Positions 8,139-12,035 of a DNA stretch of 64,000 bases are shown piece by piece (the stretch's first letter is position 1; each line of letters opens with the position of its first letter). Below the pieces are notes generated by a model that saw only the letters and a program-made list of their open reading frames with translations, ran no database searches and was not told where the DNA came from. The position numbers were made by a program, and so were the translations under genes. Source of the stretch: Methanospirillum hungatei (GTDB lineage Archaea; Halobacteriota; Methanomicrobia; Methanomicrobiales; Methanospirillaceae); the NCBI RefSeq assembly GCF_019263745.1, contig NZ_CP077107.1:2604001-2668000 (forward strand). The letters are read 5' to 3'.

Positions 8139-8777
8139 ATGACAGCAGATTTTTCCAAAAAGAGGATTGACGAGTTGATCTCTGCTCTGCTTTACATGGA
8201 CCGTCTTGCTGTCAGGGAAATCCTCTCAAAATCCACAGAAAATGAGGACAAACTTCATGTTATTGATGCAATAATCGTTCCTGCTCTGGAAGAAATCGGA
8301 AGAAGATGGGAGGAAGGGACTCTTGCGATTTCTCAAGTATATATGGCAGGAATAATAATTGAAGAAGCAATTGGGGGATTGTTTCCTCATAATGATTTGC
8401 CGGGTGGAGCAAAAGGAAAAATTGCAACGGTGGTACTTGAAGATTATCACATGCTGGGAGAGCGAATCGTTTCAGTATTTCTTATTGGTGCCGGTTATTC
8501 ACCAATTCGATATGGCAGAAGAGATGTTGCTGAGCTCCTGTCTCTCATTAAAAAAGATGAAATAAAATACCTATTTATATCTACCCTGATGCTTCCGTCA
8601 GCGTTAAAAATTCGGGAAATATCACCCCAGATATCTTCTGAGGGGGTAAAAATTATCGTAGGGGGAGCACCATTCCGGTTTGATCCGGACCTTGGCAGAG
8701 AAGTGGGAGCAGACCGTGTATGTCTGACAGCATCAGACGCAATCACCGCCCTCAGGGAATTGGAGGGTATATCATGA
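8139..8777 (+). CDS. Corrinoid (methylcobalamin-type) protein, MtaC/MtbC-like
   Basis: A 212-residue corrinoid carrier of the methyltransferase type. Residues 1-90 form the helical cap (LHVIDAIIVPALEEIGRRWEEG is the family signature). Residues 93-210 form the Rossmann-like B12 domain with the lower-ligand motif D102-x-H104-x-x-G107 (EDYHMLGERI), then SxL (STL, 148-150) and GG at 175-176 (GGAPF). Such proteins shuttle a methyl group between a substrate methyltransferase and a second methyltransferase. All residues for base-off His-on cobalamin binding are present. Its stop overlaps the start of the next gene (ATGA), so the two are made together. No substrate-specific methyltransferase of the MtaB/MtmB/MtbB/MttB types is seen beside it, which leaves its methyl donor unknown. 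Confidence 0.92.
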   Translation: MTADFSKKRIDELISALLYMDRLAVREILSKSTENEDKLHVIDAIIVPALEEIGRRWEEGTLAISQVYMAGIIIEEAIGGLFPHNDLPGGAKGKIATVVLEDYHMLGERIVSVFLIGAGYSPIRYGRRDVAELLSLIKKDEIKYLFISTLMLPSALKIREISPQISSEGVKIIVGGAPFRFDPDLGREVGADRVCLTASDAITALRELEGIS

Positions 8778-9814
8778 CAATGACTTCATTAGAGAGAATT
8801 CTGACAACAATCAGTCATACAGAACCGGACAGGGTTCCTCTCATCCTCAACCCTACCATGCATCCGGCAAGGGATATGGGCATATCCCTGAAAAAATATT
8901 TTACATCTTCAGAATTGGTAGCTCAGGGGCTTATTTCAATCCATGAAAAATTCGGGACTGATGCATATATCGGATTTCATTATACTCCGGTTGAATACGA
9001 AGCATTTGGCGGAGATGTAATATTCAGGGATGACGGACCGCCAAATAGTGGTAGGCCGATAATTAGAGAGGGGAAAGATATCGATTCCCTGACCGCTCCG
9101 GTAGTCAAAGAGACAGATTGCCTCCAGATGGTTCTGGATATGATAAAGACCCTGAAAAAAGATTCTCCGGATGATGCTCCCATTTTTGGTGTCGCTATAT
9201 CCCCTCTTTCACTCCCTGTTATGCAGATGGGATTTGAAAATTATATTAAACTCATATACTCTGATGAAACCCGGTTTAACCAGCTCATTGAAGTAAATAA
9301 ACAATTTTTCCTGGACTGGGCAACCGCACAAATGGATGCCGGAGCTAATGGAATCATCTATTATGACCCGGTCTCATCTCCGACCATTATTCCCCCGGAA
9401 TTATACCGGAAAACAGGCCTTTTAATAGCAAAGGAACTGATTCCTAAAGTCCCCGGACCAGTAGTGACAGGGTTTGCTTCAGCCCGGACTCTTGCTATCC
9501 TGGATAACGTCATTTCCACGGGAACAGCAGGTGTAGCGGTCTGGGGCGGTGAAAATGAAAACCTTTCAGAGATTAAACAAAAATGTGCCGGGAAGGTGAC
9601 CGTTATTGGTAACCTCAATGGCATAGAGATGAGACACTGGAGTCGGGAAAAAGCATTTTCAGTTGTAAAAAAGGTAATTTCAGATGCAGCTCCAGGTGGA
9701 GGTTTCATCCTGAGTGATAATCACGGAGAAATTCCTTTGCAGGTTCCGGATGAAGTGCTCTATGCCATCCGTGATGCAACATATGAATACGGGAGGTATC
9801 CGATTTCTGTCTAG
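8774..9814 (+). CDS. Uroporphyrinogen-decarboxylase-fold methyltransferase-like protein with altered zinc site
   Basis: A 346-residue member of the URO-D/MtaA/CmuA family, which in methanogens moves methyl from a corrinoid protein to coenzyme M. It shows RVPLILNPTMHPARDMG, YEAFGGDVIF and the IIYYDPVSSPTIIPPE region. Where MtbA/MtaA have the zinc motif HxC (HICG), this protein reads VVTGFASAR. Where they have a third cysteine ligand near the C-terminus (GCEIP-like) it reads DNHGEIPLQVP. The catalytic zinc site therefore looks lost, which argues against ordinary thiol methylation. The ATG at 8774 overlaps the corrinoid gene's stop, and an upstream in-frame start at 8720 is rejected. The next gene, a sensor kinase, begins inside or just after this gene. 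It may act as a binding or sensory partner of the corrinoid protein. Confidence 0.85.
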   Translation: MTMTSLERILTTISHTEPDRVPLILNPTMHPARDMGISLKKYFTSSELVAQGLISIHEKFGTDAYIGFHYTPVEYEAFGGDVIFRDDGPPNSGRPIIREGKDIDSLTAPVVKETDCLQMVLDMIKTLKKDSPDDAPIFGVAISPLSLPVMQMGFENYIKLIYSDETRFNQLIEVNKQFFLDWATAQMDAGANGIIYYDPVSSPTIIPPELYRKTGLLIAKELIPKVPGPVVTGFASARTLAILDNVISTGTAGVAVWGGENENLSEIKQKCAGKVTVIGNLNGIEMRHWSREKAFSVVKKVISDAAPGGGFILSDNHGEIPLQVPDEVLYAIRDATYEYGRYPISV

Positions 9815-12035
9815 TAAAAAGGAGGGTGAACTCTGTCTCTTTTTCTGTGAGACATTACAAAAAGAGATCACATACATATATGGGAGCCTTTCTGTCCCGA
9901 AAGGAACAAAGCTGTTTTTTTATCCACATTTTTGTACTGCAGGAAAAAGTAAAATTGATTATTTAAAGACGTACTTCTCGGCATATGTAAATCCGGAAAA
10001 TAGCGGATTATTATTCGGCGATGTAGCAATTTCAAAAAGAGACATCCTTCCTTCAAATATCATCCATACCGGTCCGGATACCTGTCATGCCCTGGTTGCC
10101 CCTGTTGAACTCATACATGATTTTGCTAAAAAGGGGAGTTATTTTATCTTTCCCGGATGGCTTTTAAATTGGGAGGAATATGTAACCGGGATGGGATTTG
10201 ATCCATCTATCCCAACTACTTTTTTTTCTTCGAGTTTGAATGGAATTACCCTTTTAGATACTGGTGTTATCCCCATACCTGAAGATATTATCAGATCATT
10301 TGAGACCTTTGCCGGATTGCATTTAACGATTCTCAAAACAGGTACTTCATACCTGACAGCGATAATTGAAGCTGCAATCTGCAAATGGAGAATGAAACAA
10401 ATCAAGGATTCAAGTACCATAGAGGATCAATCTGTCCTCCAATCCTCTGCTACCCAGATGGCAGTAATGGCACTTATCAGTGAGATTGCATCGGTAAGTG
10501 AAGAACCGGAGGTAATATCCCGGATTTTTATCATGATTCAATCTCTTTTTGCACCTGAAAAAATTGAATATATTCCCTATTTTTCTACAGGGCCTGGAGA
10601 GATCAGTATTTTTCCTTCCGGGGAAAAGATTTCGGAATATAAATCGCTCTTAATCGGATTTGAAAGGGATTATTATCTCCTTGACAATAATGAGGGATTT
10701 GTGGTTTCTCTCCATCATAAAAAAACTACACTCGGTATTTTAGGTATATTTGGTGTTTCTGTTCCGGACAGGATACGGGAATATCTTAACCTCACTCTTT
10801 CCATGACCTCTTTCCTCGGTCTTGCCATAAATAACTCCCGGTTGTGGGGAGAGATTCAAAAAATCACAAGTGAATTAGAGGCAGCAAATGATAAACTGAG
10901 AGATAATAACGAAGAACTTCTATCCTTAACTCATGAGCTTCAAGGCTCAAATCACGAACTTATCAAGAGTCAGAAAGAACTCGCAGATAGTGAAGAGTTT
11001 ATCAAAACAATTGTAAACTCTGCTAATATCGGAATCATGGTGCTCGATAAAGATGCCCGGGTTTTATTTTATAATCCTGAAATGGAACGCATTTTCGGAC
11101 TAAAAGGTGAACCGATGAAAGGGAACGTGGTCTTTGAATTTTTCCCTTATTTAGATAAAAACGGACCATTTCCCTATTTTTTTGATGCCATATCCGGAGA
11201 AAAGATAGTAGCACCAGACCTTGAATTTCATCTTCCATCCAGAGATTATTGTACCTGGATTTCAAGTATTTTTGTACCGGTTTATGATAAAGAAAATTCC
11301 ATCATTGGGGTCACGAATTATGTTTTTGATATCACCGAGCGAAAAAAGTCAGAAAAAGAATTAATGAGGGCTTATGAAGCACTCAAAGTATCTCAGAACA
11401 AACTGGCAATCCTAAGTAGTGTGACCAGACATGATATCCTCAATAAAGTCATGGTCATCTATGGATATAGTGAGATACTCCTTGCTGCTACTTCAAATGA
11501 AATAGAAGAAAAAAGTCTGAAAAATATCCTTACCGCAGGAAATGATATCAAAAATCTGATCTCCTTTACTAAAGAATATCAGGAACTCGGTGTGCAGAAC
11601 CCTATCTGGATTCAGATCGGGGAAGTGATGAGCAGACCATCGATAAAGTCTGTGCTGAATGGTATTGAACTTTTATTGCTGGATATTCCTATAGAAATTT
11701 ATGTGGATCCCATGTTTGAGAAAGTAATGTATAATCTCATTGATAATTCACACAGGCATGGTCAGAACGTTTCAAAAATTACAATATCCGCCCGGCAATC
11801 AGGCGATGATTATCTAATAGAATATGTTGATAATGGTGTAGGGGTCCCAAATGAGGAAAAAATGGTAATATTTAAACAAGGCCATGGGAAGAATACCGGA
11901 ATGGGATTATTTTTAATCAGGGAAATACTGGATATTACGAAAATATTAATACGTGAATGTGGCCTTCCCGGGGAGGGAGTCAGGTTTGAAATGGTTGTTC
12001 CAAAAGATAGTTGGAGAAAAATATCTCAAGAATAA
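9783..12035 (+). CDS. Sensor histidine kinase with N-terminal DUF1638-like domain, PAS and kinase core
   Basis: About 751 residues, soluble. Residues roughly 10-200 resemble DUF1638: a C-x-TL-x-KE start (FFCETLQKEI), then YPHFCT, GLLFGDVA and the aromatic turn SYFIFPGWLLNW. DUF1638 proteins commonly neighbour corrinoid methyltransferases. A GAF-like region (about 220-360), a coiled coil (about 360-405) and a PAS domain near 410-520 (GIMVLDKDARVLFYNPE) follow. The kinase core has H-box SSVTRHDILNK, N-box NLIDNSHRHG, G1 DNGVGVP and G2 NTGMGLFL. The start is uncertain: the frame is open from 9714, and ATG 9783 overlaps the previous gene by 32 bases. A GGAGG at 9822 has no good in-frame codon after it. 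With the two genes upstream it appears to form one sensory operon. Confidence 0.88.
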   Translation: MNTGGIRFLSSKKEGELCLFFCETLQKEITYIYGSLSVPKGTKLFFYPHFCTAGKSKIDYLKTYFSAYVNPENSGLLFGDVAISKRDILPSNIIHTGPDTCHALVAPVELIHDFAKKGSYFIFPGWLLNWEEYVTGMGFDPSIPTTFFSSSLNGITLLDTGVIPIPEDIIRSFETFAGLHLTILKTGTSYLTAIIEAAICKWRMKQIKDSSTIEDQSVLQSSATQMAVMALISEIASVSEEPEVISRIFIMIQSLFAPEKIEYIPYFSTGPGEISIFPSGEKISEYKSLLIGFERDYYLLDNNEGFVVSLHHKKTTLGILGIFGVSVPDRIREYLNLTLSMTSFLGLAINNSRLWGEIQKITSELEAANDKLRDNNEELLSLTHELQGSNHELIKSQKELADSEEFIKTIVNSANIGIMVLDKDARVLFYNPEMERIFGLKGEPMKGNVVFEFFPYLDKNGPFPYFFDAISGEKIVAPDLEFHLPSRDYCTWISSIFVPVYDKENSIIGVTNYVFDITERKKSEKELMRAYEALKVSQNKLAILSSVTRHDILNKVMVIYGYSEILLAATSNEIEEKSLKNILTAGNDIKNLISFTKEYQELGVQNPIWIQIGEVMSRPSIKSVLNGIELLLLDIPIEIYVDPMFEKVMYNLIDNSHRHGQNVSKITISARQSGDDYLIEYVDNGVGVPNEEKMVIFKQGHGKNTGMGLFLIREILDITKILIRECGLPGEGVRFEMVVPKDSWRKISQE

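Follow-up and report, generated by a model that had tools for sequence, protein, structure and literature searches.

A three-gene cassette encoding a free-standing corrinoid protein (gene A), a protein of the URO-D/MtaA fold (gene B) and a soluble histidine kinase with an N-terminal domain related to DUF1638 (gene C) was found at positions 8139 to 12035 of the window, the 64,000-nucleotide stretch of Methanospirillum hungatei DNA that was analysed, and it probably acts as a three-protein corrinoid-based input of a two-component system. Sensing is favoured because the zinc ligands of MtaA are gone from B and a tryptophan (Trp) caps the corrinoid site of A, each in 34 of 34 cassette proteins; the arrangement suggests that methyl-transfer machinery has been turned into a signalling input. 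The cassette is real, conserved and apparently undescribed, no account of it having been found in the open-access literature (subscription papers lay outside the search). A signalling cassette had been proposed in an earlier note on this DNA, and that reading stands, carried by the conserved unit, the DUF1638 kinase, the Trp cap and the zinc loss; the inputs suggested there, methylated compounds or the methylation state of the corrinoid, are candidates alongside redox state, cofactor supply and light. The host genome comprises 3.39 Mb in a single contig, in which A is the sole PF02607 protein, B the sole full-length URO-D match and C the sole DUF1638 match. The genes and their parts (lengths in amino acids, aa; models from AlphaFold2, AF2) are:

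8139 to 8777, plus strand: gene A, free-standing corrinoid-binding protein, 212 aa, with a helical cap and a Rossmann B12 domain (PF02607, 2.8e-10; PF02310, 2.3e-9)
8307 to 8309, plus strand: codon of the cap residue Trp57 of A (methyl carriers: Phe or Tyr)
8442 to 8459, plus strand: DYHMLG (DxHxxG) corrinoid motif of A
8774 to 9814, plus strand: gene B, URO-D/MtaA-fold protein, 346 aa, lacking the zinc site of MtaA (PF01208, 3.6e-48)
9713 to 9736, plus strand: SDNHGEIP segment of B, site of the third zinc ligand (Cys) of MtaA
9783 to 12035, plus strand: gene C, soluble histidine kinase, DUF1638-GAF-PAS-DHp-HATPase (Pfam, alignment, AF2 model)
9831 to 10370, plus strand: divergent DUF1638 domain of C, model residues 17 to 196 (Pfam, hhalign, ortholog score, AF2)
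10437 to 10832, plus strand: GAF-fold domain of C (AF2, residues about 219 to 350)
11016 to 11345, plus strand: PAS domain of C (PF08448, 6.2e-12)
11430 to 11432, plus strand: H-box His codon of C (SSVTRHDILN)
11718 to 12005, plus strand: HATPase_c domain of C (PF02518, 5.2e-11)

The description of A, B and C as one overlapping or abutting unit was confirmed, and their order is conserved. In the window, A and B share 4 bp (8774-8777, ATGA); this exact length recurs in 28 of 32 loci, and B and C overlap or lie no more than 9 bp apart in all. A search with the kinase N-terminus gave matches in 22 of 232 Methanomicrobiales genomes (6 of 40 genera), each in a long kinase frame, and the A-B-C order was kept in 21 of these 22 loci, the exception (L040) being a decayed cassette with no A, a short B and a split kinase. 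A profile of B found 14 further loci (E = 1e-142 to 1e-169; next-best URO-Ds 1e-45), all 14 with A upstream and a kinase downstream; ten belong to Methanosarcinaceae-like genomes (f8, a family that we infer to be Methanosarcinaceae) and four to another family of the order. A chance neighbourhood was ruled out, since the order is conserved in 35 of 36 loci. At least five families of methanogens (f1, f3, f4, f6 and f8) have the cassette, and it is not restricted to hydrogenotrophic methanogens, as it also occurs in Methanosarcinaceae-like genomes with MttB and MtaB. The nearest named relative, Methanospirillum stamsii (76% identity across the kinase), was the sole relative returned by a whole-kinase contig scan.

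The pairwise distances of the three proteins are also correlated (r = 0.83 for A-B, 0.92 for A-C and 0.80 for B-C). Mean identity is highest for B (0.56), followed by A (0.47) and the sensory part of C (0.28). The ratio of nonsynonymous to synonymous substitution rates (dN/dS) was 0.06-0.27 for A, B and C where computable, and all three genes are under purifying selection.

Gene A has the domain pair of methyltransferase corrinoid proteins, and its profile matches MttC (2.9e-24), MtmC, MtaC and MetH chains. Residues D102, H104 and G107 are invariant in the 21 Methanomicrobiales proteins, and DxHxxG is kept in the remaining cassette A proteins too. The best scores being to methyltransferase corrinoid proteins, a sensory role is indicated in the sequence mainly by the Trp cap. 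It is found in 34 of 34 cassette A proteins, in the motif GxxWexGxxALSQxYM, at a position occupied by Phe or Tyr in methyl carriers (as in GKRFEEGRYFVSDLMM and MGRLYDEG); among corrinoid proteins without this Trp, 22 of 23 had Phe or Tyr there. A same-strand kinase was located within 1.4 kb of 39 of 50 Trp-cap proteins versus 1 of 23 others (Fisher p = 1.4e-9), a statistic inflated by sequence relatedness and affected by short flanks, several Trp-cap proteins without a kinase having only 1.5 kb of flank at their loci. The B12 photoreceptor CarH is defined by Wx9EH and ExHx2G (PMC8156234). In all 34 cassette A proteins the W is kept and the EH has become xY, that is (V/E/I/N)Y. On this definition A was rejected as a CarH homologue, as Y replaces H and DxHxxG replaces ExHx2G. 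Under the explanation that we consider the best, and more likely than not, cassette A would be a sensory B12 protein and not a carrier feeding methyl groups into metabolism.

The AF2 model of B (predicted local distance difference test score, pLDDT, 92) best matched MtaA (4ay7; VIA Z 39.1, root mean square deviation 2.1, 330 residues). The zinc ligands of MtaA, HxC..C, were found in none of the 34 cassette B proteins, and B of the window scored 95.8 bits against NCBIfam TIGR01463, for which the cut-off is 235.4; on these two grounds B was ruled out as a catalytic MtaA. All three ligands are kept in URO-Ds without an adjacent kinase (MtaA at L119, L166 beside an MtrH-like gene, L168a, L168b and L169a-d). 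Two other kinase-linked URO-Ds have either no zinc ligands (L165) or HIA instead of HIC (L167). The motif E-X14-E-X20-H, presumably the zinc motif of the O-demethylase methyltransferase I (OdmB/VdmB) and taken as a lead only, was present in none of the 21 B proteins searched. Dozens of residues of B are invariant, among them H317, G318, E319, I320 and P321 (21 proteins). In the tree, the B proteins form a single clade (support 97/95), separate from the 418-aa Mto-like proteins compared; the URO-D of L165 adjoins it on a long branch, its placement being unsure. The Trp cap and the lost zinc site set A and B apart from their catalytic relatives.

The N-terminus of C is related to DUF1638, though divergent. 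In the window, C scored 21.9 bits against PF07796 (E = 1.8e-4; gathering score 27). We accept the assignment, which the earlier note had made from resemblance, because the orthologous kinase of L158 reached 39.0 bits (E = 1e-9), because hhalign, matching a profile of 19 kinase N-termini to one of 12 stand-alone DUF1638 proteins, gave a probability of 87% (E = 3.9e-6), and because the joint alignment of both groups has common Cys, Glu and Trp columns. The domain has conserved Cys and His positions and an AF2 pLDDT of about 90. It is followed by a GAF fold missed by Pfam (AF2 pLDDT 89; VIA Z 17.4 to the GAF domain of PDE5A), which took up the PDB matches of the fold search made for the DUF1638 domain, and then, in the orthologs, by zero to three PAS copies, the H-box and HATPase_c. 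With an H-box His and HATPase_c, C has the sequence marks of a histidine kinase, and T548, R549, H550 and D551 are invariant or nearly so in the ortholog alignment. Families differ in the kinase core (SSITRHDILN in Methanomicrobiales, RILRHDIANN in f8) but retain A, B and the sensory part; the conserved association is therefore with the sensory half of the kinase. L156 encodes the DUF1638 part in one frame and the kinase in another.

In Phaeobacter, a DUF1638 protein is required for B12-dependent methionine synthesis and co-occurs with a RamA-like protein (PMC5764234), and a role in cobalamin reactivation has been proposed for DUF1638 (PMC5764234, PMC12478193). In the family to which the window belongs, one genome has an MtaC-MtaB-RamA-DUF1638 gene run (L114:7118-11713), with the stand-alone DUF1638 gene last, which suggests methanol use by that genome. 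Such proximity of DUF1638 to corrinoid methyltransferases, claimed in the earlier note, holds for this methanol operon and for the methionine synthase parts of Phaeobacter (PMC5764234) but not as a rule, since at 30 stand-alone DUF1638 loci in Methanosarcinaceae-like genomes, a search within 1.5 kb found no gene for a corrinoid protein, URO-D, RamA, MtrH or MtaB.

In the flanking sequence retrieved for 36 cassette loci there was no MtrH, RamA, MtaB or MtoB-like gene (MtmB and MtbB were not searched for as such). The MttB and MtaB families were found in none of the 25 Methanomicrobiales cassette genomes, and both are present in the three Methanosarcinaceae-like cassette genomes tested. In G208, G047, G050 and G120, cassette genomes with a completeness of about 99%, no RamA-type activase was found, and many genomes that lack the cassette have RamA; RamA as an obligate partner was rejected accordingly. 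The same-strand neighbourhood of the cassette is rich in proteins with PAS (13 of 52), in kinases (6) and in proteins with REC (5). The most frequent neighbour families included no substrate methyltransferase, though a rare methyltransferase of another type may lie nearby, and no corrinoid biosynthesis or uptake genes were among the recurrent families shown. At L035 only 12 bp separate A from a REC+MetOD2 response regulator gene on its upstream side, and an ortholog of this gene is likewise found upstream at L037; no response regulator was seen adjoining the genes in the window. None of the outcomes named beforehand as refuting the signalling proposal, namely no relation to DUF1638, an unconserved gene order or an adjacent substrate methyltransferase in relatives, appeared.

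True MtrH-RamA-corrinoid-URO-D clusters of the same order encode a different, 418-aa URO-D and a corrinoid protein capped by Phe. Mto/Odm-like clusters with a URO-D of about 418 aa and a corrinoid protein, mostly together with RamA-like and MtrH-like genes, were observed in Methanomicrobiales at L111, L112, L113, L117 and L120, with several corrinoid/URO-D pairs in tandem at L113; their possible role is the use of methoxy or other methyl compounds.

How the cassette might work can be outlined from these parts. A would hold the corrinoid through the histidine of DxHxxG, and B would dock on the cobalt face of A and set or guard the upper ligand or the redox state. The DUF1638 domain of C would then recognise A, or the A-B complex, in one state, which would be passed via the GAF domain and the signalling helices to autophosphorylation of the His, and the phosphoryl signal would go on to an orphan response regulator. 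DUF1638 suits the reading of a corrinoid state because of its link to B12-dependent methionine synthesis in Phaeobacter (PMC5764234) and its place in the L114 run. As to the signal, our guess puts a methyl donor or the methylation or redox state of cobalt first, because B is the most conserved member, followed by cofactor supply and then light. The full proposal, that a complete corrinoid methyl-transfer pair was recruited as a two-component input in which Trp-capped A and zinc-less B detect the methyl donor or cobalt state, DUF1638 reads it and the kinase is driven, is offered tentatively, at somewhat below even chances.

Several observations weigh against a sensory role. The best overall match of A is to methyltransferase corrinoid proteins, and the association of the Trp cap with kinases has the bias stated above. 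No biochemical function has been assigned to DUF1638 (PMC5764234), and no DUF1638 domain was detected in the kinases of two cassettes, L159 and L160 (genomes G242 and G305). Nor does the zinc loss in B imply a loss of catalysis, for CdmB, a URO-D methyltransferase described as a substrate-guiding scaffold, works without zinc (PMC13222342). The last point would fit a catabolic or assimilatory methyltransferase system, in which B would be a CdmB-like substrate methyltransferase methylating A, and C would only regulate expression. The earlier statement that no substrate methyltransferase accompanies the genes is right in that no classical one was found beside the cassette, but the URO-D superfamily itself includes such enzymes (MtvB, OdmB, VdmB, MtoB, CdmB and CmuA), some of them zinc-free (PMC13222342). 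The strong conservation of B, with its many invariant residues, and the retention of DxHxxG in A also fit a methyltransferase system. Given that neither the MtrH acceptor nor RamA occurs in the flanks of 36 loci, that RamA was not found in the four near-complete cassette genomes, and that the genuine clusters of the order use a different URO-D and a Phe-capped corrinoid protein, we regard this as unlikely.

Nearly as unlikely, and only slightly more so, is a sensor of corrinoid supply or cobalt redox state, in which C would distinguish apo from holo A, or Co(II) from Co(I), and B would be a chaperone or capping subunit without methyl chemistry. The lost zinc site of B, the conserved Cys and His of the DUF1638 domain, which would suit redox sensing, and the proposed role of DUF1638 in cobalamin reactivation are consistent with it; on the other side, a barrel as strongly conserved as that of B points to a specific ligand or substrate more than to mere capping, and corrinoid biosynthesis and uptake genes are missing from the recurrent neighbour families shown. 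The least probable of the explanations weighed, by a narrow margin, makes A a relative of the CarH-type B12 photoreceptor domain sensing light through adenosylcobalamin, with B and C relaying the light-triggered change. It can draw on the Trp at the Wx9EH position in 34 of 34 A proteins and on sister-type corrinoid-kinase pairs in the same order with full Wx9EH and ExHxxG. Most methanogen habitats are dark, however, and a methyltransferase barrel and a DUF1638 domain would have no evident role in photolysis; with (V/E/I/N)Y for EH, and DxHxxG, A also falls outside the CarH definition (PMC8156234).

The cassette was also compared with known systems. The nearest functional parallels are MsmS and RdmS of Methanosarcina acetivorans, methanogen sensor kinases tied to methyl-sulfide methyltransferase genes, but these have no H-box and sense by heme or thiols inside the kinase (PMC6944256, PMC11784639); separate corrinoid and URO-D partners and DUF1638, which the cassette has, are not described for them. 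The likeness to CarH lies in the sensory use of a MetH-like B12 domain and in the Trp at the cap, whereas CarH, which has Wx9EH and ExHxxG, acts as a DNA-binding repressor, and cassette A is free-standing, has W-x9-xY and DxHxxG, and shares its operon with genes for a URO-D protein and a kinase. The methylcobamide:coenzyme M methyltransferases MtaA/CmuA share with B the fold (4ay7, Z 39) and the pairing with a corrinoid protein, but have the zinc motif HxC..C that is missing in 34 of 34 cassette B proteins, and the cassette score is far under the NCBIfam cut-off. The Mto/Odm/Cdm systems likewise combine a URO-D-superfamily protein and a corrinoid protein in one operon, but they include an acceptor methyltransferase, MtrH-like or other, and depend on an activase; neither was found near the cassette. 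Stand-alone DUF1638 proteins (PF07796) are homologous to the domain of C, which is divergent and fused to GAF and histidine-kinase domains.

Other corrinoid-kinase arrangements were also observed. A second type of pair occurs in the order at L110:7734-9567, L115:5515-7309, L122:7303-9115 and L124:7249-9074, where a corrinoid protein of 215-222 aa with full Wx9EH and ExHxxG is encoded beside a HisKA/HATPase kinase, and a recurrent protein with no Pfam match (about 156-160 aa) comes next; these pairs are candidate B12 (photo)sensor kinases of methanogens. Longer corrinoid proteins with Wx9EH (355-402 aa) were found at L123:6559-7635, L087, L088, L093, L101, L104, L107 and L118, and the N-terminus of the L123 protein, which has REC-PAS kinases on its flanks, matches the phycobilisome (globin-fold) family (E = 1.2e-5). 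In another family of the phylum, L165:6758-9766 encodes a trio of Trp-capped corrinoid protein, zinc-ligand-free URO-D and GAF histidine kinase without detectable DUF1638. At L167:7959-14898, a corrinoid protein, a URO-D, RamA and a 1225-aa PAS/GAF kinase are encoded in a single run.

Start sites and stop codons were also considered. The upstream start of B at 8720, taken from the open reading frame (ORF) list, is not conserved. The frame of C is open from GTG 9714, inside B and the start given in the ORF list, to 12035, and ATG 9783 is the more likely start. A strong Shine-Dalgarno-like AAGGAGGGTGA was noted at 9819-9829, just upstream of the DUF1638 domain, which begins near 9831; no in-frame ATG, GTG or TTG is found close downstream of it in C. 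The B ortholog of G305 (L160:8664-9700) is interrupted by an internal TAG and its near relative in L159 is intact, and in B of G313 a TAG sits at the end of an otherwise complete frame. Pyrrolysine in B was rejected, as there is no pattern, an internal TAG being found only in G305/L160 and that of G313 being terminal.

We know of no described case of corrinoid chemistry feeding a histidine kinase in the way proposed here. For most archaeal histidine kinases the input is not known (PMC6944256). By what means methanogens perceive methyl compounds or the state of their corrinoids is a largely open question, for which the conserved three-gene unit offers a defined and purifiable set of partners. 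It also provides a handle on DUF1638, as a kinase read-out would reveal what this domain recognises. Finally, the loss of the zinc site and the Trp cap are simple marks that may serve in annotation to sort sensory from catalytic corrinoid and URO-D proteins.

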